DNA from: Tubiluchus corallicola
Lineage: Eukaryota; Priapulida; Priapulimorpha; Priapulimorphida; Tubiluchidae
DNA: 64,000 nt
Direction: 5' to 3'
NCBI GenBank assembly: GCA_030141605.1
Contig: JAQGDQ010000030.1
Location: 479,171-543,170 of the forward strand
Part shown: in pieces, positions 1 to 63,232 of the stretch
Layout of the letters: each line of letters begins with the position of its first letter
How positions within the stretch are numbered: position 1 is the stretch's first letter
Translations under genes and position numbers: made by a program
The notes under the pieces: model-generated
What the model saw: only the letters and a program-made list of their open reading frames with translations
Database searches by the model: none
What the model was told of the DNA's origin: nothing

Positions 1-3000
1 CCATCAAGACTGGAAATTGCCAACATGCCAATTGACGTTACTACCCCAGCAAATGTTCCTGCTTTGGGTCTAACTAACCTTAATGTTGGTGAAAATGTTA
101 CATTAATAGGAGGAGCAAGTAACAATCTTTTAACAAACAGTGTTTTAACAACTAGTATTTCAACGGCATACGTAGGAAATTATTTGAGTAATCCAGTTAA
201 CTTAAACTCTGGTGATGCCATCACTCACCGAGTATCACCGACTAATGCGTTCTTGGCATCTGTGCCTCAGCAACTAGCTGTTCCTACTCAGAATTTTATT
301 GCTGTTCAACCCCATTTGTCACAACCCATGAATCTCATTCAGACCACAAGCACAGCAACTGTTGCTAGCCACTATATTCCAGAAACTGTTATGACAATGG
401 CGCCTCAGATGATGGCTCCCACTTCTTCCTCTAGTGGATTTAAAACACCAATTAAGAATTATTCAAAGGTTAGCAAAGAAAGTCTGGGCACAGCTCAGCC
501 ATTACTACAAGAGAATCTTGGTATTTATACAGTTGCGCCTCAAATGTTGCAGAATGTTTGTATAGTAACAAATGCACCTTCATTGTTGTCAAGTAGCTTA
601 ACATCAGCTTTGCCACATAGTGGTTTGGTTTCAGTGGCAACTGTAACACCAGTGCAGAACATTCGCAGTGAAACTATGCAAACACAACACTCTAGGCTCC
701 ATAAATTATCAGCAAATGTACCTACATTGGTGCAACAAGATACACATCCTGCTTCTGCTGCACCACCCCAAGAGGAAGCTGTGTGCTTGCTGTCCCCTGT
801 TGCACGACAAACTAAGTACACACAGCGACAGCAGCAAGCAAGTAATCTGCAGCCCAGCCAAAAATCTCCCTCCTTTCCCTCTTTAACCATATGTGGTGAA
901 AAACCACCAAGTGCTGCTTCAATTACTGGAGTCATCGATGGTCAAGCCGCGCCAATGGTCACCATAGATGTTAAAGTTGGACACAGCAGACGTCCAGATG
1001 GTTATTTTCCAGTAAAAGTGATAGTTTGTTCAAAGAAACAAATGGCTGTTGGAGATAATTCACATAATCAACCCGTCACTTCAAATAGCAAAACTACATG
1101 TGTAAGTGCTGGCAAACCATTAGAGACACCACCCCAGATAGAGCAGTCTGTCACAGAAGCTTTTATGCATCTTGACGAAGGTCCAGTTAGCATTGATACT
1201 CTGGCAAAAACAGCGGCTTCCCCTGAAGTTAATCTTGAAGATGCCGATTTGATAGACATAACAGAAAAACTGTGCAATAGTAACATTTGCTTTGATAAAG
1301 CTCGTTTTAGTGCATTTGACTTTGATGATGCAAGTCGAGATTTCAAGAAACTTCACCTGGATAGTGAGGATGATAACTTAAGCAAAGTAATTAGTGACAT
1401 TTTATTTGAGTTGATAGATTCTGTTTCGTTAAAAGAATTGCAACAAGAACAGAATATGCACATCACAAATGAATATAACAAAGATGGCAAACCAGTGAAT
1501 AACAATTTAATTGCAATGTCTAATGAGCCGGCAAAACTACCTGATAACAAAGTAAAGAATGTGCATGATCACTTAATCAGTATTACCGCATCACAAAAAG
1601 TTGATGTGGAGGAAGAGAACTGTGTGTTTGATACACTTAATGAACTGCTAGGCACTGTTGAGAGAGTTTTGTGCCTGCCAGAAACCTTAGTTAGTGTTCC
1701 GGTATCTAAATCAGAGGAAATGGACAATTCGCTGCATTTTGCTTGTGAACCAGACACTATGATTATGAAGGATGTTTCGTCTTTGGCAACTCAGAGTGCT
1801 ACAGCCATTGACATACAAACTAGGAATGGTGAAATCACAGGTGAGACTCGTACAGGTACTGAAAATGCAAAGCTTGGATTTCCTCGAATTCACACTTACG
1901 AGGAAAGGCAAGAATGTACACTACTGGTGAAAGAACCTTCTGATGTTTCATACATTAACTGGTATGACGTTCTTGAAAAGCTGCACACTGTAAAAGGTAC
2001 TAGTAGTACATACACATCCGAACAATCAACTGCTACCCTTAGCAGTGCATCTCATGATGTAGTACCAACGACAATCAAATCAGCATTGAGAACTAATATT
2101 GTAAAGTCCTTGGAGACACTACCTAGTGCAGTGGTGACCAATTTACCTATCACCACTGATTCGACTGTAGAAAAGCCAATTGGGTTGTCGAGTTTGGATA
2201 AAAAAGCAGTTAATGCATCTAGTTTAAAATCTGTTAATCTGAATGGGCAGCAGTCTTGTTTAGTTTCTATACCCAATAATTATGATGTAAGAGCTCAAAC
2301 TGACACCAGCAGCACTCATGTAAGTGACACACCAGTTGCTAAAAAAACTGGTAGTCACTTATTAAATTCTGAAATGCTTTACCTGAAATCTGGCACCAAC
2401 AAGTATGTTCCATTGAGTATGGGTCAACTTAGAAAATTGGGTATTGTTTCATCTGCAGTTGGACAGCCAAATGTGCTGCAAGGTCAGCAAATTCGACCTC
2501 CAGCTTTGACAGCAGCTACTGGAAATTTGTCTCATGCGACACCCTCATTGGTTCAGCCTGCAGTAATGGCTGCAGAGCAGGCAAAAGTTCCTCGTCAGTT
2601 TTTTTTGCCAAGAATCATTCAGCAAAGTCCTGTCCCAGTTGAAGATATTATAACTAGCAGAAAGATGGGTCGAGGCGGACAACGTCGCAAGCAGCAACAC
2701 AGTGTTTTGAAGAAGAATGATGATGTAGTGCCGCACCTTTATACTTATACAGTTGCCCCATTCAGAATGGCTGATGGGACAATTAAATACAAAGTGGTAA
2801 CTGCTCAGGCATTGAAAAAAGGTTATTTGAAAAAACAGAAACAGCAAGTAAAGGGCCATCCGTCTACCAGTGTTGGTATTGAGACTATAGAATTATCTGA
2901 TGATGATGAAACAAAGAATAAGAAAAATGTGGGCATCAAACTATTAACGCCTGCAGTAATGAACAAGTTGATAAAGAAAACTGGTCACGATTCTGCGTCC

Positions 3001-6000
3001 ACTTTATCTGTGTCAACACAATGTACTACAGTTTCTACAACTGGTGTGTGCTGTTCATCATATAATAAGATTGTATCCACTTCTTACATGCCAGCTACAG
3101 CAACTAGGTATGCTACGCCCATCACGCCCACAGCAACTTGGTCAAAAATTACATCTAACGTGACAACATGTACATCGAGTTTGTCGCCAATTACAGTTTC
3201 AACGATACCACTGCAAACAATTGCCAGCAAAGATTTAATAGCACCATCACAGACTTTATTAGACAACACTGGAGCTTCTCTATTGACTTTAGCAAGCTCT
3301 GTTGATACCATAGCTAGCATTACGAAATCTAAAAGTTTTGAGAAAATAGCTGCAACATGCACAGTTCCACAGAACATGCAGATACAGCAGAACATTGACC
3401 AGCAAATTTCTGAGGAGCAAGATGAGGACATTGATATAAATGAAACACTAGAAGAAACTTGGCAAAGAATAACAAAATCTTGTGCTAAAAGATCACCATC
3501 AGACCCTATCATTCCTTGGACAAGTTTATCAGCTACAAATGAATCTGTAGTTGGTAGTGCTGATTCTATTTCTGCAAATCCAAAGTCGAGAGCTCGAACT
3601 AAGCAGAGAAAGGCATTTCTCAGTTCTCGGAAGAGAAACACCAGTATGGCTAAACGGCATGAGAGAAATGCAGGTCATAGACATACAAAGAAAACCGCGA
3701 ACAAGTTGTTAAATGAAAAGGCAAAGCATGCCAAATCGAAATTCTTGAAAAAGGATATTCACAAACGACTTGTTGGCAAACAAAAAAGCCCCAACCAAGG
3801 TACTTCAGCACATCAGGATAAACAGCAAAATAGATTGGCCTGCCAGAAAAATGCTAAAGCTGTTGCAGTTAATGATGGGAGGACAGTTAACAAAAAGAGT
3901 GAAAGCAAAAATGCATTAACACTTTCAGAAAATGACAATATGCCATCAAATCAGATACATAATCAAAATCTGAAAGCAGGCAAAGCACTCGACATCGTTT
4001 CCAAGAATGCACCTGCTGCATTTTATGAAGGCGATGTGGATATAGAAAGTGTGGATTTCATGGAAAATATCAAGCAGGATTCAGATGCTATGATGGAAGC
4101 AGTTCACACTGACTCTGAAAAAAATACTTGGAGTGCAACTATGAGTTCAAGTGTGTTTCGAGATAGTTGTGATATTTCTGCAAAAGTTAGCTTGCAAGAT
4201 ACCTTTGGGCAAAGACAGAGGATAAATGCTATTTTTGCAGGTGACTTAATTGCCAACACCCAGAAACAAAGACGAGTCCCCACAAAAGCTGAATTGAAGG
4301 CATACAGCGATGTTGTGCAGAAAGATATATCTCCAGAACTGAATAAAGAATTTTTGTCAGGAAGGCGATCAGTTAGAATATTAGCACACCAGCTTGAAGC
4401 TGATGACGTAATTTCATCAGATGCAAGAAAAGAACCAGAAAAAGCAAATAAAGTTTTGTCTAGACATTTGCCTTTGGAAAACCAAAACGAAGCTAAAAGC
4501 CACAAAGTCTCTGAAAAAAGTTTTGACCAATTAAAAGATGAAGAAAAAATGTTAGAAGCTGACAGAGGTGCTGGTATTCAGAAGTCACAAAAGATCAGAG
4601 CAAATAAGGTGGCATCTGAAAACTCAAGTCATTATGACATTAAATTTGATGAACATCTGTTTGAGAGAAGATATTCTGTTCGATATTTAGCAAAAGCACT
4701 CTGTGAACAGGAGGTCTCTGTTGATGATCAACTGAAAGACTCATTAGCACCAAATGAAGCAACAGTTTCTGAACGAAAAAATAATGCTGAAAAAATTATA
4801 AGAAAAAGTGTTGAAACAAAGGGGGTAAAAACAAAGAAAGACTTTAAAAAAATTAGTAGAGGAGCAGAACTTACTTACCAACATGCCAATGACAAAAAAG
4901 TAAAAGTGGCTAGAAAAGAAAAGAAGGTGAAACATGATCCTGGAATGACTACACATAGTAGAAATTTACGGAGCCTAGGGAACAGTAATGAGAAAGCAGG
5001 AGAAAAAGTGATGACTTCACTGGAATTGGAAGCTTGCGGAGCAGCTCTGGAGAATACAGACACTATGGAAGAATTGCCAAACAACAGGGTAGATTATGCA
5101 TGTGCTAGTGACCTGGCAGGACTGGCATTGGCAAGTAAGAAAGAATTCACCAGTAAAGAATGTCAACATTTATTTGGTCTGTCTAAACCATTTTTGGATG
5201 AAAAAACTTGTGTACCTACCAGTTCACCTGAAAAATTGAAAAAGGAAACGAATGAAGATGTATCTGATGATGTGAATATGAATCCGGACAAACTGCTTGA
5301 TACTAATGCTAATAGAGGTAGTACTTCTACTTGCGGAGACATTGCCATTAGGCATGATGGTAAAGAGAAAGAAGTTGAATCACAATGGCTTCAGCATGCA
5401 GAAGTTGGATCATCTACGCCAAATTATGATTTCACTGGTGACACAGAACAAAATAAACGTGCTGAATCAGCTATTTCGTCTTGGGGTGATTTTTCTAAAG
5501 AAAACAGTAGAATGGAAGAAGGTGTGGCAGTTGTCACCTCAACTGCCATTGAAGTTGGAAATTCAGACTTTGGTTATGAAATGTCTGATAGTGAAGCTTC
5601 AACTCTGCCATTTAGTTCTGATGGACAAATGGAGACAGAGGTGAAGAACAGAGACTCACCTGTATCAGGATCAAGGGAAAGCAGTACTAACAAAGCACTT
5701 GCCTGGACTTTCAGTTCTGGCGAGACTGGAGAATCAATAAAGAAATCTTCAGTTGAAGAAAATAGAATTGGTAATAATGGCTCAGAAGGTAAGGTTCTTT
5801 TAAAGAAACAGGCTGACTCTGATTGGCAAAATTTAGAAAGTGAAGTTGATACTGTTACTGGCTATGTTTGTTCAAAATCTGGAGTGGTGTTAGATAACAT
5901 TGATGTAGATATGTTTGCTGGAAAGACTGGCAAAGAACAAGAGAAGCCCAACCAACAGGAAGACACACTTAATTTGAACCATGCAGATGGAATGTGTTCA

Positions 6001-9000
6001 AAAACTAAAACTTGTAAAGGCGAGGAACACAATAATACAGGTGAATTTTATACAAGTGCCATACCAGATCATGCAGAGCTTTCAACTAATGAAAGAGAAT
6101 CAAAAGAGTCATCTCTGCATCTGAGTTACAAAAATTCTTATTTATCTCTAAGTGAAAAGGAAAACAAAGCTGTTGTTTCTTCTGTAACTAATGCAGAAGG
6201 AGAGTGCTGTAGTAAATCAGAGACACCTGGAGTAGGATATGAAAAAAATGGCGACAAAGTTGTTAGTGTAGATATTGAACAGCATAACAAAGAAGTTAGC
6301 AATTGGCATGGAGCAACAATGATTGAACAAAATGGTGATATAACTGAATCTTCTTCAAGACAGGAAGGAGTTCTTACCATTAATGTTAAAATGTCTGACA
6401 AACAAGACAGTCACTTGTTGATTAGACAAGAACTAGCTGCAGTCAAAAGTGGTGTTACACTGCCTGATAGAGAACATCTTGTTTCAGAAGTGACAACACT
6501 GATTGAACATAGAAATATGGCTGGAAATATGGAAGCAGTTTCATTTGAACAAAAAGAAGCTGATATATTACCAATGATAGGTCCTAGTACTGGGGAAAAA
6601 GAAGGCAGTGTACAAGAAAGTAACACCACAGATAAAACAGATAACTTTCCAGAGATGGTAAAAGAGGAAGGTGCTATTACAAATGAGAAATTGACATCTA
6701 GTGAACTAGCTAAGAAGTCAGTGTTTAATTTCTCAAAAGGAGAGCAGATTACGAAAGTAAAGAATACAAAGCGGTTAATATGTAGTGATGTTATATTTGA
6801 TTTTGGACAGCCTGATGTTACATATGCTGATTATGGTGAAACTGTTGGATCAGAAGACTTCATGCTAGATTTTACAAAGAGTAATCGACCAAAATCTACT
6901 GGCAGTTGGCGTCAATCTTGGGATGTTTATCACCAATTTCTCAGAGGTTGCACGCACTCTATAAAACCACCCCAGATGATCTTTTCAATAACTAGTTCTC
7001 TTGAAGACTTAAGTAACTCTAAAAATTTGGTTTCGCCACTTGTGACTCATGGAAAGAAAAACCAGCAGAATATTAGATCTGCAGATCAGGCACATGTTAA
7101 AAAACGGAAGAGTAGCAGGATGGCTAAAGACAAAAAGATATGTGATAATAACTTTGGTTCAGGGATTGAAGAAGCTTACAGCATACCTAACAGAATAGAG
7201 AAATTGCCAACTGTTAGAGGTATTCCACAAAGGAAAAAATGTGGTAAACCTCCTAAAATTCAAGAAATAAATGACAACAACTCTAGATCAAAGATTACAG
7301 ATGCAGCTGACATATCCCCTGGAATAACAAAATTGCAAACAGGTAAAGTTACAGATTGGCCACAAGTGCAAAAAAGAAAACGTGGTAGACCTGCCAAAAA
7401 TAAAAAAATACGTGCTATTGACACCTCTCTGAAGACCAATAAAAATGTGTCTACTAGCGAGAAAGAATCGTATACTGTTACAGGTAATGATTTAATTGCA
7501 AGCCTTGGACAAGCGAATGATGTACCATCTAGGATGAAAAAAGCACAAGAAGCGAGTACAAAAGATAATGGTGAAATAACTAGTAATATTTTTCTTAGAG
7601 CGGAAGAGATTCCAATTGGTAAGCCAACACGTAGCAGACTTGGTAAAAATAAACACTCAAGCACCTGTGATTCTTATGCAAAAACTGGAGAAATTAGTGA
7701 TATTTCTACTAAAGTGAAGTGCATTCTTAAAGGCAATGGCTCTAGTCAAATGACTGAACAAACAACATCTTCTAAACTTAAACAGTTACAAATTGTTAAA
7801 GATGTCAGTGTGTGTCCAATGGTTGAAAGAAGGAATAGTAAAATAGGTCAGCCGTTGATGCAGAAAAGAAGACGTGGTAGACCTGTAAAAAACAAAGAGT
7901 CGGTTCACGATGTTGAGTCAATTGCTGCAAAAATACGTGAGATATCTTCTCCTGTTAAAGGTAGTATTGACTTGAGTCAACGTGTTAATGAAGAAGTAAG
8001 TCATACGTTACAATTGCCCATTACCATAGAAAGAACATTTACTCTTAATGCTCCTGCATCAATTAGCCATGAAAAGTTACGTAACAAAACCATAGCTACC
8101 AAAATATCAAAAGCAAAACTGGTCAGATCTGCTAGTGAAGGAGCTATGTGTAACAGAAGTGCTCCTCTCTTGCACCAGACAAGACTCAGTAGATCAGCCA
8201 GCCAGAAAAAGCATAACGTGGGAATTATCTGCAAAGATTCACAACAAATTTTAGGTAGATCTTGCCATAAAAAGGACAATAACAGTGATGACTTGCTGCA
8301 AAAATTTAGATTTACTAGTTCACATCACCATCATGGTGTTAGTGACAAAGATCCTGTAAAGCCTATTGTCAGTAAACAGTCTAAAAGAAAGCTTTGCAGA
8401 TCTGCTATTGGAGAAGATGCCATTGCGTTAACTCAAGAGCAACATGATGATTTTGCTAGTCAGGAAAAAACATCTACTGATCTTAGTGTTGATAATAAAA
8501 ATGTCTATGTGCTTTCCGAGAAGAAATGTGATAGGTCTGCTAGTCAGACAATATTAGCATTTGAAGAGTTCACCAAGTTGGTTGCCATTCAGTCATCTGA
8601 TAGTCTGTTCAACACTCAAAACAAAGGGCAATCTTCCCAGGATGAATCTCATGGCAGGGGCATTACCCGTGTGTTTGAAAAGAGATGTGGTAGGTCTGCC
8701 ATGCAGAAGCAGATCTATTCTGTTACCGCTCAGCAAAATATCAAACTGTTGTCTGAATCAAGACCAAAGAGGTTTAAAAGTAATGATGAAGTATTGTGTG
8801 TTAGTAAGTCAACTATTGTTGGGGACATTAAGAATATGTCGGGTGTTAAGCAAGGCTCAAAAAGAAAACGTCGTAGACCTACTGAAAGTCATGATAATGT
8901 TAGTGATGATCGTGATGTGTCACAAAAAATATATGTCAATGCTGCAGGTCACGTGTCACTAGAAGCCAGTGTGGCTGCTTCACCATCCACAGCAAGCTTA

Positions 9001-9180
9001 ACATCAAACACTTCCTTCGGTAAAGAGACACTAGAAATCGGCAATGCTGCAGCCACATCAACTATGAAGTCGCAACTGAAGCTGAGAGGCACAAAGTTTG
9101 TAAAAAGAAATAACTCAGGCAAAAAAGCTGTCATTAAATCTGCTACCTCTTCAAAACATAAAACCACTTCTGCAAGGTAG
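1..9180 (+). CDS. Giant AT-hook-like, low-complexity protein, probably nuclear (5' partial, family not recognised)
   Basis: A single reading frame is open from the left window edge to a TAG at 9178-9180. The first in-frame Met is at 25 (context AACATGC, A at -3), giving 3051 residues, but the frame is open upstream so the true start may lie outside the window. I do not recognise the family. In order: a Ser/Thr/Gln/Pro-rich N-terminal part (about 1-780); a compact, possibly folded stretch (about 783-940, including a YTYTVAPFRMADG segment); a SUMO-interaction-like ETIELSDDDE (953-962); Lys-rich linkers; two copies of an SVR-x-LA motif (about 1446 and 1548); an acidic Ser-rich part (about 1700-2300); AT-hook-like repeats (RGRP at 2453 and 2617, RRRP at 2949, CGKP at 2406); seven RSA/RSC motifs (2701-2890); and a basic C-terminus. 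There is no zinc finger, bHLH or catalytic domain. Chromatin binding is an inference from the AT hooks. A 9-kb exon without introns contrasts with the 60-310-bp exons of its neighbours. Confidence 0.85.
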   Translation, partial: PSRLEIANMPIDVTTPANVPALGLTNLNVGENVTLIGGASNNLLTNSVLTTSISTAYVGNYLSNPVNLNSGDAITHRVSPTNAFLASVPQQLAVPTQNFIAVQPHLSQPMNLIQTTSTATVASHYIPETVMTMAPQMMAPTSSSSGFKTPIKNYSKVSKESLGTAQPLLQENLGIYTVAPQMLQNVCIVTNAPSLLSSSLTSALPHSGLVSVATVTPVQNIRSETMQTQHSRLHKLSANVPTLVQQDTHPASAAPPQEEAVCLLSPVARQTKYTQRQQQASNLQPSQKSPSFPSLTICGEKPPSAASITGVIDGQAAPMVTIDVKVGHSRRPDGYFPVKVIVCSKKQMAVGDNSHNQPVTSNSKTTCVSAGKPLETPPQIEQSVTEAFMHLDEGPVSIDTLAKTAASPEVNLEDADLIDITEKLCNSNICFDKARFSAFDFDDASRDFKKLHLDSEDDNLSKVISDILFELIDSVSLKELQQEQNMHITNEYNKDGKPVNNNLIAMSNEPAKLPDNKVKNVHDHLISITASQKVDVEEENCVFDTLNELLGTVERVLCLPETLVSVPVSKSEEMDNSLHFACEPDTMIMKDVSSLATQSATAIDIQTRNGEITGETRTGTENAKLGFPRIHTYEERQECTLLVKEPSDVSYINWYDVLEKLHTVKGTSSTYTSEQSTATLSSASHDVVPTTIKSALRTNIVKSLETLPSAVVTNLPITTDSTVEKPIGLSSLDKKAVNASSLKSVNLNGQQSCLVSIPNNYDVRAQTDTSSTHVSDTPVAKKTGSHLLNSEMLYLKSGTNKYVPLSMGQLRKLGIVSSAVGQPNVLQGQQIRPPALTAATGNLSHATPSLVQPAVMAAEQAKVPRQFFLPRIIQQSPVPVEDIITSRKMGRGGQRRKQQHSVLKKNDDVVPHLYTYTVAPFRMADGTIKYKVVTAQALKKGYLKKQKQQVKGHPSTSVGIETIELSDDDETKNKKNVGIKLLTPAVMNKLIKKTGHDSASTLSVSTQCTTVSTTGVCCSSYNKIVSTSYMPATATRYATPITPTATWSKITSNVTTCTSSLSPITVSTIPLQTIASKDLIAPSQTLLDNTGASLLTLASSVDTIASITKSKSFEKIAATCTVPQNMQIQQNIDQQISEEQDEDIDINETLEETWQRITKSCAKRSPSDPIIPWTSLSATNESVVGSADSISANPKSRARTKQRKAFLSSRKRNTSMAKRHERNAGHRHTKKTANKLLNEKAKHAKSKFLKKDIHKRLVGKQKSPNQGTSAHQDKQQNRLACQKNAKAVAVNDGRTVNKKSESKNALTLSENDNMPSNQIHNQNLKAGKALDIVSKNAPAAFYEGDVDIESVDFMENIKQDSDAMMEAVHTDSEKNTWSATMSSSVFRDSCDISAKVSLQDTFGQRQRINAIFAGDLIANTQKQRRVPTKAELKAYSDVVQKDISPELNKEFLSGRRSVRILAHQLEADDVISSDARKEPEKANKVLSRHLPLENQNEAKSHKVSEKSFDQLKDEEKMLEADRGAGIQKSQKIRANKVASENSSHYDIKFDEHLFERRYSVRYLAKALCEQEVSVDDQLKDSLAPNEATVSERKNNAEKIIRKSVETKGVKTKKDFKKISRGAELTYQHANDKKVKVARKEKKVKHDPGMTTHSRNLRSLGNSNEKAGEKVMTSLELEACGAALENTDTMEELPNNRVDYACASDLAGLALASKKEFTSKECQHLFGLSKPFLDEKTCVPTSSPEKLKKETNEDVSDDVNMNPDKLLDTNANRGSTSTCGDIAIRHDGKEKEVESQWLQHAEVGSSTPNYDFTGDTEQNKRAESAISSWGDFSKENSRMEEGVAVVTSTAIEVGNSDFGYEMSDSEASTLPFSSDGQMETEVKNRDSPVSGSRESSTNKALAWTFSSGETGESIKKSSVEENRIGNNGSEGKVLLKKQADSDWQNLESEVDTVTGYVCSKSGVVLDNIDVDMFAGKTGKEQEKPNQQEDTLNLNHADGMCSKTKTCKGEEHNNTGEFYTSAIPDHAELSTNERESKESSLHLSYKNSYLSLSEKENKAVVSSVTNAEGECCSKSETPGVGYEKNGDKVVSVDIEQHNKEVSNWHGATMIEQNGDITESSSRQEGVLTINVKMSDKQDSHLLIRQELAAVKSGVTLPDREHLVSEVTTLIEHRNMAGNMEAVSFEQKEADILPMIGPSTGEKEGSVQESNTTDKTDNFPEMVKEEGAITNEKLTSSELAKKSVFNFSKGEQITKVKNTKRLICSDVIFDFGQPDVTYADYGETVGSEDFMLDFTKSNRPKSTGSWRQSWDVYHQFLRGCTHSIKPPQMIFSITSSLEDLSNSKNLVSPLVTHGKKNQQNIRSADQAHVKKRKSSRMAKDKKICDNNFGSGIEEAYSIPNRIEKLPTVRGIPQRKKCGKPPKIQEINDNNSRSKITDAADISPGITKLQTGKVTDWPQVQKRKRGRPAKNKKIRAIDTSLKTNKNVSTSEKESYTVTGNDLIASLGQANDVPSRMKKAQEASTKDNGEITSNIFLRAEEIPIGKPTRSRLGKNKHSSTCDSYAKTGEISDISTKVKCILKGNGSSQMTEQTTSSKLKQLQIVKDVSVCPMVERRNSKIGQPLMQKRRRGRPVKNKESVHDVESIAAKIREISSPVKGSIDLSQRVNEEVSHTLQLPITIERTFTLNAPASISHEKLRNKTIATKISKAKLVRSASEGAMCNRSAPLLHQTRLSRSASQKKHNVGIICKDSQQILGRSCHKKDNNSDDLLQKFRFTSSHHHHGVSDKDPVKPIVSKQSKRKLCRSAIGEDAIALTQEQHDDFASQEKTSTDLSVDNKNVYVLSEKKCDRSASQTILAFEEFTKLVAIQSSDSLFNTQNKGQSSQDESHGRGITRVFEKRCGRSAMQKQIYSVTAQQNIKLLSESRPKRFKSNDEVLCVSKSTIVGDIKNMSGVKQGSKRKRRRPTESHDNVSDDRDVSQKIYVNAAGHVSLEASVAASPSTASLTSNTSFGKETLEIGNAAATSTMKSQLKLRGTKFVKRNNSGKKAVIKSATSSKHKTTSAR
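7099..7950 (+). repeat. Degenerate AT-hook repeat units inside the giant protein
   Basis: Residues about 2359-2642 contain five related units. Each begins with a basic block (KKRKSSRMAKDKK, RKKCGKPPK, KRKRGRPAKNKK, KPTRSRLGKNKH, KRRRGRPVKNKE) and is followed by a more acidic segment rich in E-I-S/T, such as ITDAADIS, GEITSNI, GEISDIS and IREISS. Units are about 45-85 residues long. Two carry the RGRP core of a classical AT hook; the others are decayed or diverged versions. AT hooks bind the minor groove of AT-rich DNA, so this part is the best candidate for a DNA-binding region. Confidence 0.6.
8119..8710 (+). repeat. RSA motif array inside the giant protein
   Basis: Between residues about 2699 and 2895 the motif (G/L/C/D)-R-S-A recurs: VRSASEG, NRSAPLL, SRSASQKK, GRSCHKKD, CRSAIGED, DRSASQT and GRSAMQKQ. 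Several copies are preceded by a basic-cysteine pair (KKCD, KRCG, KLC). Arg-Ser dipeptides in a basic context resemble phosphorylation or docking sites, but that is only an inference. Confidence 0.55.
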
Positions 9181-11403: not shown

Positions 11404-14400
11404 TTAAACGCTATCCAGAATAGCTTCAATTTTTTCAATCAGTTCTTCACGTTTTTCGATTGTGGCTTTTTCCACTTCGATGTACTGAACTCTGTTCATT
11501 TTGTTGGCAACAACTTTCTCTGCATATGTTATAGCAAGAGCGATTTGCTCCTTAATACTTCGATCCAACTTTTGCAGTTCTGCAACCTTAAAAAATTAAA
11601 TTCAGATAAACGTAGCTAAGCAGACAACGAAATTAGTTCAATATGATTATAAACAAAACTCGTTAAATTGGCTTAATGAAACTCAACTTGCTACATTAAT
11701 TTTCAAGTAATTTAGAGAATGTACGATTTTCAATTATGTACGAATGCACAAAATAAACCACAGAAAATCGTATTAAGAAATTAAGTGCTGCACTTTTTAG
11801 TGTTTAAATCGGTAATTGTTAATTTAATAAATATCAGCATGTCGTGTTTATCGCACTATTTAATATAAAATCATTAAGGTGGTTTATGCAAGCAAAAAAT
11901 TGTACGATCTGTTTGATGGGCTCCAATAATCGTTATACACATACATGCAGTCTTAGCTTTCAGGATACCACTCATGGACAAATTAAGATGACATGTTACC
12001 AATGCAGTTAAATTGATTGTGAACAAGGAGGCACAAACCACCTAAGTACTAATGTGCAAATTTACATCGGAGTTAGTTAACGGTGATGTAAAATAGACTT
12101 GACACAGCAAATAAGTTGACGGGTGGGGAGACTGATTTATTTCCTATATTTAATACATGATGGAAACTGAGATAGGACTAGGCATTATAACAAGACATGA
12201 CTGTAGTTTCAACGCTTTAAGGATTCTCAGGTTGATTGCTTGTAGTGGGCTGAAATGCATAAAAAAGCATGAATATTTCTGAATGTACTCACTTTTTCTG
12301 CGATGTCTGCTGCATCAGGTTTTAACTTTTGTTGTATATCCGAAATTGTCTGAGTGAAGAGTTTGTAATCCCCGTCTACTTTTTTACTAGAAATTTAGTG
12401 AATAATCAAAATTATAAATAAGAGCTTAGCATTTTTAATAAGCTATTTCAAACGCAATGAGCCATTTCAAGAAGATGACCAACAGGCTAACAAAAGGTCA
12501 AAGCCAAAGTTTCCTCTGCAAGTGTCAACAATGTGCCAAGTTTGACTGGCTTCATCTGAGCAGTTTCGAAGGTACAGTGACAAACATTTGCACTGATGCA
12601 CTTACGGAGATATACGTACCCCAAATTTTGCTAAAGGAAAACTAAAAAACAACAAAAAATTTGACTAGTGTACAAACCGGTTAGATGTGAAAGCACCAAC
12701 ATCTTTGCTAGACTTGTACTTGTTTATCGCGTCATCATATGCTTGATAGACGGCGCTGCGTTGATCCTGAACTTTCCGCAGTTGCTCGACAAGTGCCGAA
12801 ACACGCATGCGACTCTCGCTTGCTGAATCCTGTAAAATATTCCTAACTAATAACAAAGCCTGGAAAAACAATATTTTGTAAGATAAGATAAGAATCTGAG
12901 ATAAGATAACATGTGTCCAATCTTCCACCGATTTTATGTTCATAGCCAAAATTCCACTTTATTAAAAGATGGAAATAATGTGAATGCTTGACAAAGTACT
13001 ACACTAGGTAACAATTGACTTGGCAAAATACTATTAATCTAGGCAGGACACTAGGTAAGGTCAGACATTGGGAACAGAAAATATTGTGACTTTCACTACA
13101 GAAATTGCCATTTTCCTTAGGAAATAAACTGAAATTACGGATGAAAACAATAACAAACAACAAGACTAATGCTGCAGTTCTCACAAGTGCCTGGAGTGCT
13201 TATGTATCAGTCTGGCAGAGACAGAGAAAATTTACAGGAAACTACAAGCATCGGTGCCAAACCACAAAAATTTGTTAAATGCAGTACTGATATTATAAAC
13301 ATGTTTTTAACATCAGCGCATCAATTACCGGACACATAGTTCAAGTACAATACAAATTACAAAAAAAATTCCTGGTAGGAAAAAATATTATTATTAGAAA
13401 TTCACAATGGCCATTTCAATGCTACATGAGATATGTATTAAGGCAAATGCAACCTTTTCGCAAGTGGAGATCCAGCTGCCTGTGTTTGGCGGTTTCGCAC
13501 TGTAGTTTCAGCTAAAAATTAGAATAAAGCCAAGACAAACATACCTTAGATATGGAAAAGTCCAGTCTCACCCAAATGATGACGACCATGAACAACACCC
13601 AGAAGGAGATTATCACCATTGCTGGTTCACGCAGCAAGTTTAGCTTATTAAAAGTGTACTTCACCTGCATAAAAAACAAGTAAATAATTTTCAATTAGAC
13701 ATAAAGGTAGAGAGCATCTGTCTTAACAACAAGCAGGCAAGCCATATTAGCGACATTCTAGAAATGGTAATGTGTTGTCCGTCCGGTAACTGCTTCATCA
13801 TCAGCATCAATATCAATGCCATCATCTTTATCAACAACATGTCGTCATTGTAGTTGTTATCAAAATCATTCTCATTCTTATGTGTCATCACCACCATAAT
13901 AATTAGCAGTATATTATGTCTGTCTACGATAACAAAAAATGAGATGTACCTGTATTACAACACAGGCTTTTTGTAGGGCGCAGGTTCAAGTTATTATTGT
14001 CAGAATGCAAAAAATTCTTGAAGAATTTAATTTAAGTTCAAGTCACGCTTGTTGGAGATTTCATCTTAATACAGTTTTAGTTAAAAAACTAATTTAACCA
14101 TTGTTTGAATCGCTTTATATAAATCGGGTGAAATGAGTAATTCTCCATTGAATTGCTTAATTAGATTCCCACAACATTACGTCTTTTCGTACCAACCTGC
14201 AAAATAAATATTAAATAACATTCAGAAAACCACCTCAAAATCTTGAATGTGCTGCTCCACCAAGTTACTTTTGTGCAGTACAATAACAGGGCGTCCCCAG
14301 TAATCCAGGTACGTATAATGTTTCTCATCAGGTAGTCTGTCGATCTGGAAGCCACAACTTATCTCAATGTTGCTGAAAAACATAACATATTAACCTTGTA

Positions 14401-17400
14401 AAAGTAAAATAAATTGCAACAAACATACAAAAATCATAAAAACAAAAAAACACAAACGAATAATAAAGCAAAATGCTGAATGAAGCCAACAAATGCATTG
14501 AAATGTTTTTCTGAGAAGCTCAAATAAACTGGGTGTAAAATTTAAAACATATAAGCTGCTAGCAAATAATTGTACATTTTCACCAAACATTTACTTGCTA
14601 TAACTTACAATAATGAATGGAAAATTTATTAAAATCGAAACGTCTTGATAGTATAATGTTTTGTGGTTTGAATTATTAGTAAATACAAATTTTGCTAAGG
14701 CTTGAAAGTTGAAATGAATTGGCTTTTGTAAAATGCTGCATATTTTCAGTGTGTACGTATTTCATAATTTTATTTCCAATCAACTTGATGTTAAAAAGCT
14801 TGGAATAAATACAGTAGTACTGCCTAAGTTATATGAGGATACTAACCTGGCGCCCTCGGGCAGAACAATACGAATCGTTGCATCGTCAATTTGCTGATCA
14901 TCAAACACATGATCAACGAACCGAATCTTCAACAGGTAGTTATCACCTATTAATAAAACAATTAGTTTTTCAAGCATCAATAAAGGAATCAGTCAAATGA
15001 GCTCAGTCACAAGGGCACTGTATCTGCTTAGTAAAATTTGAACTGTAGCTCAGAACAAGTATAGCTTAATGTCAGTAAACAAAAACATGGAAAGTTCTGA
15101 TCTGTATTTTACCCAGTGTATGCACACCCGCAAGAAACAGGCATTCCAAACGAGTCGGCTTAATGTACTGGGCTATGCTACCCAATTCCTAGGTAAATGC
15201 TAGCCTAAAGTATCAAACGTAGTGCTCAGCATGCTGCAGGAAAATTTTTTCAAAATGTACATGGATTTGTGGTTTGTACTAAAATTTTCTCTCTCTCTTT
15301 CTTTTTCTCCCTCCTTCACATTGGCACTGTCGAGGAATCAATTTTTCAAGGCCAGAATTTTGTTACATGTTTCCAGAATCTAAACAGATTCCCACCCGTA
15401 GCTTTTTAGGAGAACCTATAGAATCAAAGTCTAAAGTACATAGTTCAAGTACGATGAATTATAATTATTGAAACAGCGAAGATTGGATTTCAATTAAAAT
15501 ATTTATTATAAGAATTAATCACTATCAGAAGTGACATATTTTTCAGAATGAGACCAACATTTCCTGATTCAGTCTCCAAGCCATTTAGAAGTTTGTCAAT
15601 TCTTCTGTTTGTCAGTGAACCACAATCATCATTTCATTCATTAAGAAGTATATAACAAGCATTAACAACAAGAACTGCTTTAAATTTACGCGAAACACGA
15701 AAAATTTTACTGATAACTTGACAAATCTGTCGTTTCCAAACTTTACACCATCTACGTGGAGCTTGTGTTCTTGTTGGCTTGGCAGATTAGTGCCAGTATT
15801 TCATTTATGTCTTTAATATTCAGGTAAAACCTGCACGAATCTAATCAGATTCAGGGTACTGGGCATTGGCATGAATGAATTCAGGGATTTGCATCAAAAT
15901 TCTGGCTTTTCAATGAAAATATCTGATGTGCGCAGCTGTTTCTCAACATTTTACATGATAGTGTCAAAAATGGTGCTGACCCGGGATACTTCTCAAAATG
16001 AAATTTTCGCAGAAACCTGGCTGGACTTTTAACCAACACCATCTTAAACGAGATTGGCTCACTCTGAGCCAATTCACTGACAAAAGGAACAGCAGTGCAT
16101 GCATTATTCTTTCTCCCACATAAAAATTTTGAAAACAGGTAATATGATCAGATGTTACTAAAGCTGCTCCTGAAATGTACACTAGAAACTTAGGCTGGCT
16201 CACACGATTCACATGAAATCTTGATCAGGCTTATGCAAATGACAACATAATTATTATTACATAACATCGGAAGAGTACCTTCATTGAATAGATACTCATA
16301 GCTTGGGAGATTGTACCCCAGTAGGTAACGAGTCTTCCAGCCTCCAAAGAGAGGAAAACGAGGCCGCAGCTCGACCTCCACTGAGTCATGCATCTCTCGC
16401 AGATGACTGGTGGAAATATTACCAATTTCATCTCTGTAGTAAACGTCGGATGCAGCTGCAGGTAGCAATGTCTGAAATCACAAAAAACAGGCAATAAGTC
16501 GAACAGATCTAATTTTAGATGTCAGTACAGAAGCACAATTTGCAGTTAAAAACAAGCACCGCTATGTTGTAACTTTTCACCATCAATTAGGTTAATCACA
16601 ATGAATGCCCATAAAACTGGTGTTTTACAACAAAAACGCAAGAAATCAAGGTCAACTAAATAAACAGACCCTAAGCACAAACACGATTACAAACAAATAA
16701 AGATTCTCTGATTTATTTTGAGGAACTCAACCCAGTTTGTAGGAATGCCAGTTCCGGATCGGATCCAGAGTTGTATGTGTCGGATTTACAAATGAATGTA
16801 AATGATACTTCATTTGTTTAGCCTTTTGTTTCATGTGGTGGTATCACCTGTTTGTTTCCAGAGTCACTGAGTAATTTTAATGTGGAGACTGTGCAAACGT
16901 TTCTTTAAAGTTGATGTACTGTAATTTTGAACACTTGACTTGTGCTTCAGTTCTTTATTGCATGTACCACATATAGCATAATCTCTGTCCGGTTTACACT
17001 AAAAATCTTCAAACTATGCTTTTAGTGGCAGTACATGGTTGTAAATTTTAACAGATATTTTTGCAGCAATTGTGTGCAAGAAGATTACTGGTATTGCTTG
17101 CGAGTGCAAGCATGGTGGCATAAAAACTAAGTGATACTTTCGTATATTTTTGAAATTTTTAATAGAAGCCCTCGTCACAGTCTTCAAAAAAATTAAGAAC
17201 TAGATAGGTAATTAAACTGTTACATATATTTTCTTCTTACCCGGAGTAGTTTTTTCATAGTTGGTGCACAATTTACAAATAGAGAAATAGAAATACAAAT
17301 AGTGCAGAATCCGATGAACATTTCTGCCAGATCTGGGATCCACTAAAATGACTAGAACCGGATTCGGCAGATCACTACCAGTTAGTGATGCGAGCAATGT

Positions 17401-20400
17401 AAACTTGCCAAAACATGACCTCACACCTACTTAATGAATGCTTTAAAGGTTTTGAAAATATTTAATAATTCAAAATTATAATATTTATATTAATATATTT
17501 ATTTTAAAAAGCTATTACCAGATTTGAAATTTAAGCTCTCAATGACTGCAATCGAGAAATCGCTTTATTACATCCCTAATCTAATTGTAAAACTATATTA
17601 ATGGTACTAAATTAGGGCTCACTATTGAGCCTCAAAATTATCAGAATTAACAAGTCACTGCCATTGGTTACAGTTTCAGTAGCAAAAAAATGCATAGTGC
17701 AAAACCAGCAACACAACTATGCTTAAAATTGAAAACAATTTCTGGAAGAGATCAAATGGTTAGTGCTGCTTTGAAAAGAATCATTAACGTCGCAGCTCAC
17801 CTTATATGCCCACACAGAATTGCCACCTGTTTTGTCCCTCTGGTATTCATATCGAGAAAATGTTCCCTTCAGTATTGCACCAGTGTGCCTCAAATCTATC
17901 TCCTCCTCTACGGCAATGTTTCCCCAGTGTGAGACTTCGATGCTACGTTCTATGTGACTTATGGCTAAAAATGGTACATTGCTTTCAAAATGTACCCGCA
18001 TTTCTTCCTAAAATGTACAATAGTAAACTTAAAATAGAAATTATTACTTCTGGTGCTGTACTCGTACTCTGTTTCCTTCTCACAAACTTTTACTATGATA
18101 AAGTTCGCGTGGTCTTAATTTATGCTTGATGTAAACAGGTGACGATTTTTTCCAAGATTTTGCTTAAAAATCTTGTAATCAAGACTGACCTTGTTTTCTT
18201 CTCTTATTTTCACATGTGCAGAAAGCTTTTACAAGCTCTAAGCTTCTTCAGTGTTTTGCAGTACAATATGTAGAATCTACGTAAATTGTTCTGATATGAT
18301 GCTAATTATTTTGGTTATATAATTTTATTTTTGTTCATGTTTATGTTCTGTTGTACTAAAGTGAAAATAAATTAAAAACTGGATATGCAATAGGCTTTTC
18401 CGTTTCCTTCTGACGTTTCGGCATTCAAGATATGACAACTGTAAGCCAAATATTTTAACAATGCACGTATTTTAAAAATTCTAAATAAATGCTGGGTCTA
18501 TATTGTATATTTTAATATTAAAAAATGTTAGAAGTGTACTGTACCTGTTTAAAAGGCTCTACATTCTCATAAGGTCCATATGTAGCTTCACTTTCGCTCA
18601 CTGATACAGGTTTGGGCACCTTACTGTAAGATTCAATGTTATTCGTGGCCGCTTTTACCACCGTTTTCTGTTCTTTTGACACATACGGCGAGAAGGCATA
18701 TACATTTCCGGTGTAGAGAATGAGCTGCTTTTCTGCTTGGCCAATGTGGGTCGGAAATGGCTGCTGTGAGTGAGTGAAAACTGTTTCCACATCAACTGTT
18801 GTCGTTTTTTCGGGTCCCAGTTTCTTCGGTAGCGTTATACGGTAGAAATTAATTGTCCTGAATTCAAGAAAAACTCATTTTTTAACACTATTGCCAGTAT
18901 AACCTGGTCTATTTTTTGGTGAATATGAAACCTTACAAAGACGAAATATTCTGTGCTGTGTCATAAGTATCTTCCAATTTTCAAATCTATTAAATTAACT
19001 AATCCAAATAACCTTGCATAGCAAGTGACAAGTGTGCACACTATTTCAACTTACATCAGAAATAATTTAATCAAGATCCCACAGAAGTAGAGATTATCTA
19101 AAATGCAGGTAATAGATCATGGTTATTTATTAAATACAACTATTTCTTAAAGAAAGTGTTAGCAAAACAACACAAAATAAAACTGCCTAAACAGAAATTT
19201 ATTTTAAAAACTTACACTTGATTAGGAACAGATGTAGGAACAACATTCAGATTTTCACCTTCCTCACCAAGAGATTTTACCTATAATAAACCAGGATAAC
19301 ATTAATTTAAAACCAAACATGTATAACTGACTTTGGGGGTTTTTATCCATTACTCGAGCAATACTAGCAATTATTTGCGAATTACAATACGAGGTCCTGT
19401 ACAAGTTGGGCTGTGTTTGAAATTCAGGACATAATGGTACATTACTGCAAACTGTATGTAAAATGACGCTAGCAACAATGTCACATTCCTTTTTTTAGTT
19501 GACATTCACATAGTCGGATTATTAGAAATACTAAGTCAGTGTTGTTTCAATAAATAGCATTTCAATCGGATGTATTTGTTACATGGCCAAATTGCACTTG
19601 CTTGCACAGGCTGTCTGATTGTAGAGTTTGTTAATTTCTCAAGAGAATAAAAGAGCAAGTACACAGTTTTGAAAAGCTATAATTGTAGCTTTGCACAGCT
19701 GTCAAGCACCTATTTTAATGAAAGTTAATCAATCATTTTGTAAACAGACAAGCCAAAAGAAAAAGGCATCATAGCGGTGCTTGGTCCACACCAAGTACTG
19801 CTAGGATGCTTTTTTCTTTTGGTTCTTTGGAAGGCACTTTATAGGTCATTGTAAAGAGAAAAAACGAGGCTAACACGATGAGTTCTCTTACACTTGCCTA
19901 CACTAAGAAGAAGAGCTTCGAGTTAGTTTGGGAGAACATTCTTTCTGGACGATCTTGTACAACGCATCATAGAGAATTACACATTGTAGCTATTACACAT
20001 AAACATATTAGTAATGGCTAAGAAAAAAATTTTGTTTTAGAACACTGTCAACATAACATTATCGTATTTCACACGAATATACGGAGTGTAAAGACACATG
20101 TACAAACTTATTCTGTAATAATGCCCAAACCAGTACTTTATCTCCTATGAGATATGATTTAATAGCAGACCTCTCAATCCCAATGTAGCAACTATGGAGA
20201 TTCTTAAAAAACCCTGGATATTTCCTAGAGATTTTATATTATGTAGTGGATTTTTTGACATCCAATTTAAATATACCTTACATCAAACGTTAAAATTAAG
20301 CTCGCTAATAATGGTTAATTCAAAATCGCAGACTAGAGATGCAAGTTTGCTAAATTTGGTTGTTAATCATGGTAATATGCGGCACCTTTTGAGTCGTTTT

Positions 20401-21064
20401 TCTTATGAAGCGAGTTTATTTAAAGTTAATTAAACATTGTGTGGATGTGGTAACTCTAAACTGGCTAGTGGCTTTCATGCTTTTTTTAGCTTTGTTCAGT
20501 AAAATCATAAAATTTACTGTTGTTTTTATTTACCACGAGAAAACAAAAATGTACAGTGAGACAGCGAGAAGTGAGTTAAAATTTGTTACCTTAAATACTC
20601 GTTAGAGTTTGAGAGGTCTGTTAGTGGTATTACTTTTAGCTTTACCGTTAATTATTGGGACAGCGATTGTCATCACAAATAAAATTTAGTTATACGGTTC
20701 ATAGTGCTGATTACGCTAATGACATAAACAGCCGTAGGGTCCAGCAATATAATTTATTAATACTATAAATTAGGACGTCACTAGCTAGGCTTCAGATGTA
20801 ATAAAATTAACTTACAGAAGCTCCAATAAAAGAAAGCTGCTTAGCAGTGGATGGTTCAAAGGCAACGAGAAACGACTTGATGTCTTGTTTTCCTGTATTT
20901 TCTAACGTGTAGGAAGTTATAATTTTGACAAGTTGACTGGTGAGATCTACTTCTCTTTCGACATTTGACTGAACTAAAAGTGAATTAATCTCGTCGCGGT
21001 TCTCTGACATACAAAAACCGACAAGCATTAGGCCTACTAGATTAAAGAGTGCTAAGCATCTCAT
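11404..21064 (-). CDS. RPN1: Ribophorin I, oligosaccharyltransferase subunit 1
   Basis: Subunit of the ER-membrane oligosaccharyltransferase, which transfers the lipid-linked glycan to Asn of nascent proteins. I reconstructed 11 exons with GT-AG junctions and consistent phases: 21064-20816, 19280-19216, 18857-18545, 18007-17801, 16471-16279, 14946-14847, 14372-14234, 13664-13545, 12829-12678, 12386-12293 and 11586-11404. They give 604 residues, close to 607 in human. Visible landmarks are an N-terminal signal peptide ([19 protein letters not shown]), the conserved luminal segments [28 protein letters not shown] and [18 protein letters not shown], a single membrane span at about residues 437-455 ([17 protein letters not shown]) followed by VRLDFSISK, and a charged, helical cytosolic tail. 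The stop codon is TAA at 11404-11406. It is convergent with the upstream giant gene and divergent from IPO9, sharing the 351-bp promoter. A possible extra exon at about 13450-13511 was tested and breaks the frame. Confidence 0.97.
13794..13900. repeat. Decayed ATC/ATG trinucleotide repeat in an RPN1 intron
   Basis: The stretch is dominated by imperfect CATCA/TCATCAT units with interruptions. It lies between the exons ending at 14234 and starting at 13664. It is not conserved coding sequence. Confidence 0.4.
20165..20621. mobile_element. MITE-like inverted-repeat element in RPN1 intron 1
   Basis: GCAGACCTCTCAA at 20165-20177 is matched in inverted orientation by TTGAGAGGTCTGT at 20609-20621 (12 of 13 positions). 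TA lies directly outside both ends (20163-20164 and 20622-20623). The length is 457 bp, and there is no credible open frame inside. This fits a non-autonomous TA-target (Tc1/mariner-type) element. The terminal CAG...TCTCAA is also reminiscent of hAT ends, but no 8-bp duplication is seen. Confidence 0.5.
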
Positions 21065-21415
21065 CTTCGTTACTTTTTAAAGATTTGTCGGATACAAAAC
21101 GCACAAAATTATCTAAAAACGTGTAAAATACCGGCAACCTCGCTGAGCTGCTGAGTTGTCACTTCCGGGAAAACTTCCGGTTTCATTTTTAATTCAAACT
21201 GTTTTATTTTCCACTTTCCTTAAATTTTTGAAAAAACTGACTTTCAAGAAGGGCGTCTTATCAATTAAATTCTGTTCAAAGGGTTACTTTGCGTTCTAGA
21301 TAATATTTAGGTGCTAGGTGAGCACCTAAAATTCTTAATTCACGTCAAAGTCGTGAAAGAACATAACTCAGTAAGTTAAGTGTAGTTTCCCGCCAAATCT
21401 ACGAAGACATCAAAC
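21065..21415. promoter_or_regulatory. Bidirectional RPN1/IPO9 promoter
   Basis: The RPN1 ATG (minus) and IPO9 ATG (plus) are only 351 bp apart, so both 5' UTRs and both promoters must fit here unless an untranslated exon lies elsewhere. Two ACTTCCGG ETS/GABP-type sites lie in tandem at 21161-21168 and 21173-21180, a hallmark of housekeeping bidirectional promoters. An E2F-like TTTCCCGCC is at 21386-21394. There is no clear TATA box at a useful position. Confidence 0.75.
21306..21330. promoter_or_regulatory. Perfect palindrome in the IPO9 upstream region
   Basis: The arms TTTAGGTGCT (21306-21315) and AGCACCTAAA (21321-21330) are exactly complementary around a 5-nt centre AGGTG, 85 bp before the IPO9 start. 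It could be a dimeric transcription-factor site (AGGTG/CACCT half-sites) or an RNA hairpin in the 5' UTR. Confidence 0.5.
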
Positions 21416-52599: not shown

Positions 52600-55500
52600 C
52601 TAAATTTCAATAGTTTGTTTTGTCAGAGGCTTTAAATTAAAGCCAGCTCCCCGTGTTACTTTCTTTTCTGCTTGCATAAGTGGTTGTTGACTGATGGCTT
52701 GTGTCAAAAGCTGATGTTGTTTTTCAGCTTGTTGATGTTCTTTTCGCTTCATTGAATAATATTTTGATTTAACTTCCTAAAATGCAGAAAGATTGTGTTA
52801 CACATTAAAACTGATGATAAAATTGTCAGTAAACTCAATAAAGCTTTGTTTTTGACAGTTTATCAAAAAATAAGTCTATTTTTGCCCATCACTGATAGAA
52901 TTATTGCAATTCCTAGTTTAGTGATTAAAACCGAAAGAGTTGCCACTGTGTGGTTTCTTATTTAAATTTAGGATAGTTTGATTTTTTTCAACGATGTCTT
53001 CTGATTTCTAGATGCTGCTTCTGTAACATCTGCATTTTTGTAGCATCTTGAAGATGTCATTATACATTTAATATATGTATCCATTTAAAAGAAAATGAAA
53101 CTTTTTGGCTATTATTGAAAAGAAGGACAACTTTTTTGGCTTATACCAACAAATGCTGCTGTGTTTAGACATATCATAAAGAACTCGTTTAACATTTTCT
53201 TTCTCTTAAAAGATTTTTCTCACCTCTAGTTCTTTGGCTAACCTCTGAATCTCGAACTTGTATTCGCTCACTTGTGATTCAGTTCTGTTCATTTCAGCTG
53301 TTAGACAACGAATCTCCTTCGCTCTGGCCTAAAAATAAACAATCTGGTGCAGATAAAATTTATTATTACAGTTAGGTTAGTTTTATTTACTACTCTTTGT
53401 AGTAAAATAGTGGTCTCTTTTTTCTTTACTTACCTTAAGTTTCTGTCGATATGCCAATAACTGTTCTGCAACTTCAGGTCCAGGTTGCCGAGACAACTTC
53501 TGTTTCAGCTCTGCGTACAGCCGCTCTTTTTCCTGGATCTGTTGTTCTTTCTCCACCACCTCTTCAGTTTTCTGGATCAGCCGCTTTTGCAATGTCTGCA
53601 TTTTTTGTAGCATCTCAAATGCTCCCGGGTCGCTGCCTTCCAATTTCCGCCATCTAATGCCAGTAAATTTGAATTAATATTCTGCTAATGACTTGGGAGG
53701 TCAACTAATTGAAGTGCTGGCTACACAGCAACTTGTAGTGATAGACATAGCCACTATGATAACTCAGAAATATTTTAGATATTTAAATTATGCACTGTGT
53801 TGTAGAAAATAGATAAAAGCATTAAGCAGTCCATGTCTATCACTTTTTTCCTGTACATGGGAATTACAAAAGTGTGAACAGGTGAAGGGTGCTATTGTCA
53901 GTTATTAAAGAACACACCCAGAATCTCACACATGTTGTAGCACAGTAGTATTCAGGTAATAGTAATAATGTTGTTTTATATAATTTTAAATCAAAAGTGC
54001 TTAAAAGGCAAAACCACACAAACGAGACAAAATGCGAAACTCCACTCTAACATTTTAACCATCCAGCCATTAAAATACCATGGGTTGCACTTAAATTTTG
54101 GCCTAATACAATATTTCTACTTACCTATGGACATTCATTGGATTTTCTAACTCCTCTTCTAAAGCTTTACATCGTGTCTTTGAGCGAAGCAGTTCTCTGT
54201 GAGTTGCATGAACTTCTCGCTTGACCTCATCATTCTTTTCCATTGATTTATTTAATATCTTTCTTTCTCTTCGAAGTTCTTTTACCTAAAGACAAACTCG
54301 TGTAAAACTTATGGAATCCACAGATTTGAAAGCAATGAGGAAATGATACAGATTACAACCAAGTGAGTTAACAATGCACAATGAAATGTTTTTTTTCGGT
54401 AGGCTGTCTAGTTTTTGGATTAACTGTGTATGTTCACAGATTGGAATCGTTGTCATCACAGCATGTTTTTGAAAAAATATAACTGGTTATGTATGTTCTT
54501 TATAGTGTGTATTGTTGTTTGGTTAATAGTTTGGTGCAGTTGTGGTAACAGAATGAAATGCCAATAACTGGTTTCTCTTTTTAGGCTTATTATCCTGTCG
54601 TGTATTTATTATTGGTACATTGAATATGTCCTACGGGGCGTGAAACATCTGGGATTAAAAAAGTAACATTAGTTACACTTAAATCTACAAATACTATGCA
54701 TATCTTTGTTGAAACATGGATAGTTGTGTATTATTGATGGTCACAATTAACGATGGTAATGTTGGTATGGATGATGGTGATATTGACGAATTGCGGTGAA
54801 AATGATGATGACAACGATAATTATGGCTCGATAATGATGAAGTAATAATGGCGTTTCAACTACGATTATGTGGTCATGATTATAAGGATGCAAATGTTAT
54901 AACAATGACAGAACTGTGGTAATGAAAAGTAATAACAAAAATCTTTACCTCTAATTTTAAAACCCGTATGTCTTCGAGCCGTGCAGTGTACTGGGATTCA
55001 CCTTTATTTAGTGTAGAGTGTAGTATCTTTATTTTCTCATACAGTATGGCCAACTCATCATTTCGTCTTACTAACTGTGTACCAAGGACATCTCTTTCAT
55101 TAATCACCTGTGGCAAACATCACACATTTTTGAAATTTTATATTTCTTTTGTCATAATTAGCACATAAAAAGGTATGCTTGTTTAAAGGAAAGGACAAGT
55201 CACTTGGCATGTTGGGTTTATTTGACAGTTATCACTTAAACTTAGAAAAATATAATAAACAAATTTTGCAAAAACTGTCTATACAGCACAAAGTTAATTT
55301 ATACTACCGCTGAATACAAATGTTCAGGCATTCACTTGAAAATTATGACATAACTGGTGGACTTCGTGACTTTTCGTAAATGCATTGTGACTTTCCATAA
55401 GCGCGAGCTAGCTACATAAACTGATTCATACTTCTGCAGCTTGCCTAATGTTCATGCAAAAATATCACAAAATTAACTATCTATTTTTTTGTAAAAACTT

Positions 55501-61500: not shown

Positions 61501-63232
61501 TCAAACTTCCAAGCGTTTAGATTTAGAACTACGTGTATAGGAAAAATGCAACGAAAACTTGATTTATAATACTGGCAGATCACGAGTAGATCTAGAATGG
61601 GCAAAGTGAATTTAGTACATTTCTAGAGTTGGTGTGTTTACCTGACATTCCTGTTCAACATCTGCAATTTTGGCCTTCGTTTCAGCTAGATCTTTTTCCA
61701 ATTTCTCCTTTACATCTGTTGACTGGGTCATTTCCTTGCGAAGCTCAGTTGCCTCTACGAGTAAGTTGTCTCTTTCCTTTATGAGTTCTACTTTTACTCT
61801 TTATGGAAATAATATACATTAATAAGAAAGTGAGAATTTTAAAGAAAAATGATAAATCTTTTATTTTAAGGAAGAAAGAATGATAAGGAAGAGAGAGAGA
61901 GAGGGAGGGAGGGAGGGAGGAAGGGAGGGGTATAAGATAATAATGGTATTCATTATTCAAATCTCAATTCATTTTTTTACTTTTTAAGGAATTAAAATTT
62001 TCATTAATTATTAGATCAGAACAGCTGTTCACATCATCCTTAATCTATGGAATTAGTAAATTAGTAATTACTGTACAGTTCATGGGTGTTTCTATAAAAT
62101 CCACTTGTTCAGGTGTACTTTTAAATGAGTGGTAAATGTAAGGAAAATATAACAATAATTACCTAACTCTTTAGGTTGCCCACTCAAACTATGTGTATGC
62201 CCGCTAATTGTGACAAATGGGTTTGGTTAAAGTGACACAGGAATGGGGCTAAAATGGGTTCAATACTTGTACAGTAAATAATGAGTTTAATAATAGGTTC
62301 AATGGCTTAACTATAATTCATGATGTATTGGCCATTCTTGTATTAGTTGTCATAATTAGATCTACTGAGATTTCCCGGGAACAAATCTTTCACAAACTAT
62401 GCTTGAACAAAAGAATTATGATACCACTACATACTTCAGCAACTCATTGACATTGTGCTCCTGCCCAAGAGTCAGGCCGGCACCTGCTTCCACAAGTTTG
62501 CTTAAATTATTTATCTCTAACTTCAGAGCTTGGACAGTTTCCTTAGCTTTGACTTCTTTCTCATGAGCTGCATCAACCATTTTCCATGCTTTCTCGATCT
62601 CCTGCTTTAGAGCCGAGATGGTAGCTTGATCTTCTTGACTTAGCTTGAGTGCTGTTTGAACCTAATAAAAAAAAGCATTCAAATTTATTTAAAAGCACCA
62701 CCCTATAATGCTTCCCTTTTCTTTGCTATATGGCATCACATTATGTAAACTACACTGTTGCTTGCACTGTATTGCCACCTATTCAAATTTCAGCAATAAC
62801 TTTCAATATTTTTTGCTAAATAACATTAAATAAATAATGATACTTGAATTTCTTAATAATTATAAAACAGTAAATAAGCACAGCTAAAGAAAATAATTAA
62901 GCTTGTATAGCACTCTCTGTACTTATAATTTCATGGCTACATCAATATAAAGTAAACTATATTTACCTTTGTCGCATTGGACACTATTTCCGCATTTAGT
63001 TCTCGGCATCTCTGCATTAACCGTTGCTCACTATCATGTGATTTCACTAAAGCTTTGTGCAACTTCTCGTATTCTTTTTGAAACTTTTCTAAAGATTTGT
63101 CACCAGTTAGTTCCAAAATTGTTTCCTGAAATAGTCTCAATATGAAACATGTACGTTGACTTAGCTAGTATATATATATATATATATATATATATCATAT
63201 ATTATGTTATCTGTGCATAAATATAATATATA

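Follow-up and report, generated by a model that had tools for sequence, protein, structure and literature searches.

The open frame that fills positions 1-9180 (+) of the window, the 64,000-nucleotide stretch analysed here (contig C390, positions 479171-543170), very probably belongs to the terminal exon of a divergent RLF/ZNF292-type gene that carries AT-hooks in place of zinc fingers. Extension of the contig to the left revealed four more exons upstream of this giant exon, and the giant 'orphan' exon became assignable once these short exons were read jointly; going by the resulting sequence matches, the gene is not an orphan and belongs with a known animal family. In the coordinates used throughout, 0 is the last base before the window and negative numbers lie to its left; searches covered an assembly of 343.5 Mb in 2344 contigs.

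An RLF-type repeat domain in short upstream exons

A weak Pfam match to TPR_Rlf (E = 0.019) prompted a genome-wide search with its profile, PF25580, which describes the N-terminal repeat domain of the zinc-finger proteins RLF/ZNF292. Only two genes matched, the present one and a paralogue on contig C1106, and the search added one more upstream exon to the former. With its upstream exons joined, the present gene scored 72.9 bits (E = 3.2e-20, cut-off 27) over profile positions 3-170 of 226, and the joined exons of the paralogue scored 76.6 bits (E = 2.3e-21, cut-off 27). Successive exons take up successive profile positions, 44-94 in the present gene and 46-94 and 97-177 in the paralogue, the exon for positions 97-170 of the present gene having been found in a separate Pfam search. 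The domain is spread over the exons at -7713..-7573 (141 bp), -7123..-6983 (141 bp) and -4582..-4395 (188 bp) and the start of the exon at -2411..-1459 (953 bp), all on the plus strand. A Pfam search of the raw three-frame upstream DNA missed it because it is split among exons, and the earlier note could not have picked it up, given its position beyond the window edge and its division into short exons. A further weak match at C859:764008-764142 (E = 0.06), in a stretch without relevant frames, was rejected as chance.

In the two genes the profile match ends at position 170-177 of 226, and removal of the insert did not extend it. The exon at -2411..-1459 also encodes a second conserved module of about 66 residues (EEETYINKGDPSFKPPK...DPLLPWSQLRQMCNQYL), which is 59% identical between the paralogues, higher than the TPR part, and matched no Pfam family. 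This module is reminiscent of the W-rich segment that follows the TPR region of RLF/ZNF292, but a profile test gave no support for this likeness or for its being the end of the TPR_Rlf profile.

The paralogues match collinearly over four exons (E = 7e-24 to 1e-12), share an adjoining QCWLTSYF stretch at E = 0.001 and have 44% identity across the joined region. Comparison of the two loci yielded no further N-terminal exon; the N-terminus of the gene may come from a candidate exon near -12892 (MSGVRQYEATKMAPVEDLDFEHYL, phase 0).

Elsewhere in the assembly, C618:140271-141252 holds a partial extra copy of an exon of the C1106 paralogue, nearly identical but with its reading frame broken by shifts, which looks like a degraded duplicate or an assembly variant. 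Near it, C618:146176-147219 and 151815-153215 hold an ORF of tandem 17-residue units (ELLSSVNRESEHACKFS) and a long ORF of ankyrin repeats. Homeodomain matches in the assembly resemble an Antp-class Hox set that includes Lox4/Ubx-, Post1- and Post2-like genes, which may hint at a spiralian (lophotrochozoan) animal.

The giant exon and its AT-hooks

Searched alone against Pfam, NCBIfam and PDB, the giant exon returned chance matches only, which bears out, for the window, the earlier statement that no domain can be named. The more ordered patch picked out at that time (residues 792-934, positions 2374..2802, +) gave no family match. A simple charge-hydropathy index classed 60% of the 51-residue windows of the giant exon as unfolded and none of those in the TPR region, and sequence constraint is low across the ~3130 residues supplied by this one exon. 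When the giant exon was compared with that of the paralogue, which is open for up to 2799 codons, the Smith-Waterman score was 85, whereas shuffled sequences averaged 85.7 and reached 110, so that no homology was shown. The stretch SDVIFDFG...FMLDFTKS (6784..6882, +) resembles ISHNVIVDF...FVLDFT of the paralogue's giant exon at E = 0.34, a likeness not significant on its own.

Near the C-terminus, the giant exon encodes two canonical AT-hooks, KRKRGRPAKNKK at 7372..7407 and KRRRGRPVKNKE at 7864..7899 (both +), with a [KR]RGRP core and basic flanks, compared to 0.0008 expected in the shuffled protein. The giant exon of the paralogue likewise has two [KR]RGRP AT-hooks near its C-terminus (0.0032 expected from shuffles), and a third lies in an exon upstream. 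Further motifs in the present giant exon are a degenerate AT-hook-like QRKKCGKPPK (7225..7257, +), a stretch resembling a SUMO-interaction motif, by motif only (IETIELSDDDE, 2878..2910, +), and a basic cluster that may be a nuclear-localisation signal (SKRKRRRPTE, 8857..8886, +). The AT-hook and SUMO-interaction-like motifs reported earlier were thus both recovered. Neither gene contained a C2H2 zinc finger, whether sought with Pfam zinc-finger profiles at E = 1 or better or with the C2H2 pattern.

Canonical RGRP cores and basic flanking residues are features that the protein shares with HMGA-type AT-hook chromatin proteins (PF02178). Unlike these, it has only two canonical hooks in more than 3600 residues, placed at the C-terminal end, and a TPR_Rlf N-terminus; the Pfam AT_hook profile gave no match in this gene, and its best match, in the C1106 paralogue, reached 12.6 bits, below the cut-off of 17.4.

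Relation to RLF and ZNF292

RLF of mouse and human is a nuclear chromatin regulator (PMC4053835, PMC4381397). The mouse protein is nuclear and has 16 widely spaced zinc fingers (PMC4053835), some of which mediate DNA binding; it co-precipitates KDM1A, RCOR1, CBX5 and MRN subunits, and its paralogue is Zfp292 (PMC4381397). Mutations mapped in mouse Rlf affect residue 355, in exon 7, and residue 1558, in exon 8 (PMC4053835), so that having a giant last exon seems to be a trait of the family. The present gene resembles vertebrate RLF and ZNF292/Zfp292 in having an N-terminal PF25580 domain laid out over short exons and then a very large terminal exon, in the very large size of its protein and, putatively, in a nuclear role. 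It differs in lacking C2H2 zinc fingers, of which mouse Rlf has 16, and in having AT-hooks instead, in a long disordered tail that cannot be aligned, and in being one of two paralogues in its genome, neither with fingers. Judged by domain content, the gene is therefore a variant, a TPR_Rlf protein and not an RLF zinc-finger protein. We found no papers on invertebrate relatives of RLF.

These results bear on two readings offered in the earlier note. One, a disordered terminal exon of a nuclear regulator with a folded domain upstream, was right in form, although that domain is the TPR-like domain of RLF/ZNF292 and not the DNA-binding domain that had been proposed. The other, an unrecognised lineage-specific protein, does not hold for the gene, since its family is known from other animals and the genome contains a paralogue; it survives only for the sequence of the giant exon, which is unalignable between the paralogues.

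By analogy with RLF, the protein is most likely a nuclear chromatin regulator consisting of a folded N-terminal docking domain and a long, disordered AT-hook tail. Such a protein would be nuclear, its N-terminal helical domain and second module would dock partner proteins, and the long tail would act as a flexible scaffold. From what AT-hooks do elsewhere, those at the C-terminal end may bind AT-rich DNA in its minor groove, replacing the zinc fingers of vertebrate RLF, and the protein, like RLF in mouse, might affect the chromatin state of regulatory regions. The functional analogy would run through the N-terminal domain alone, because neither giant exon shows homology to RLF or to the other.

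As to how this architecture arose, we lean towards a branch of the family in which AT-hooks on a fast-changing disordered scaffold replaced, or were never preceded by, a zinc-finger array, with two duplicates that keep the docking domain and have no alignable tail. A sub-question within the RLF/ZNF292 assignment is whether the gene is truly orthologous to one vertebrate member (RLF, ZNF292 or ZNF654) and lost its fingers, or instead represents a side branch in which they never existed. Such a loss is a plausible account that falls somewhat short of probable: these are the only TPR_Rlf genes found in the genome, neither has fingers, and the giant last exon is as in mouse Rlf, but the present genome is the only invertebrate one compared, and this does not separate loss from primitive absence. 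If such a branch without fingers is real, the conserved part of the family would be its little-studied N-terminal domain and not the zinc fingers, which would mark docking by that domain as the core function, and an invertebrate would be available in which this domain can be tested free of fingers.

Gene model, coding status and neighbourhood

The five joined exons (141, 141, 188, 953 and 9401 bp) form one frame of 3607 residues with an incomplete N-terminus. Every junction has GT-AG splice sites, and the phases agree (0, 0, 2, 1), the third exon ending AAA/GTATGT (phase 2) and the fourth CAG/GTAAGT (phase 1). The giant exon starts at -220, directly after TTTTTGCTTTAG, and extends on the plus strand to a TAG stop at 9178-9180, a length of 9401 bp or about 3133 codons. 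The paralogue repeats the same exon order, from TPR exons through the second module to a giant exon with AT-hooks. This agreement, together with the single frame and matching joins, makes it quite improbable that these are two adjacent genes, one comprising the TPR_Rlf exons and the other, the giant exon, encoding a separate lineage-specific AT-hook protein, a reading with which the absence of any Pfam, PDB or NCBIfam match to the giant exon itself would agree.

Within the window, the frame runs uninterrupted from base 1 to its stop, 3059 codons in all, and stops occur at 2.9-12.7% per codon in its other frames, which excludes chance. After training on other genes and the paralogue, a codon model ranked this frame first of six in 31 of 31 consecutive 300-bp windows, with scores above zero in every one (0.03 to 0.36; introns at most 0.02), so that nothing points to a hidden intron. 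The intronless frame of more than 3050 codons described earlier is therefore upheld, as is the open frame at 1-9180, although the exon begins at -220 and not at base 1. No second copy of the giant exon was found in the genome, marking it as single-copy DNA. That the frame arose by chance or from a mobile element, as transposon-like fragments recognised by eye further upstream might hint, can be dismissed in view of its length and coding signature, its single copy and its lack of a transposon domain.

The neighbouring genes within the window do have short exons, as previously described: RPN1 (12668-21076, minus), IPO9 (23600-50000, plus) and CFAP58 (53386-63164, minus) are all multi-exon and were recognised by eye from their translations. 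To the left lies a multi-exon gene at -17732..-15893 whose exons match the Pfam Tim17 family and which by eye is TIMM17. IPO9 and TIMM17A are also close together at human 1q32, and their closeness here may possibly reflect old synteny. Upstream of TIMM17, reverse-transcriptase-like and Tigger/pogo-like transposase fragments were seen by eye at -25430..-24771 and -21019..-20148. Further out on the same contig, at -28800..-27523 (minus), an open stretch of 426 codons, apparently with few or no introns, encodes a parkin-like protein, recognised by eye from a UBL and a cysteine-rich part.
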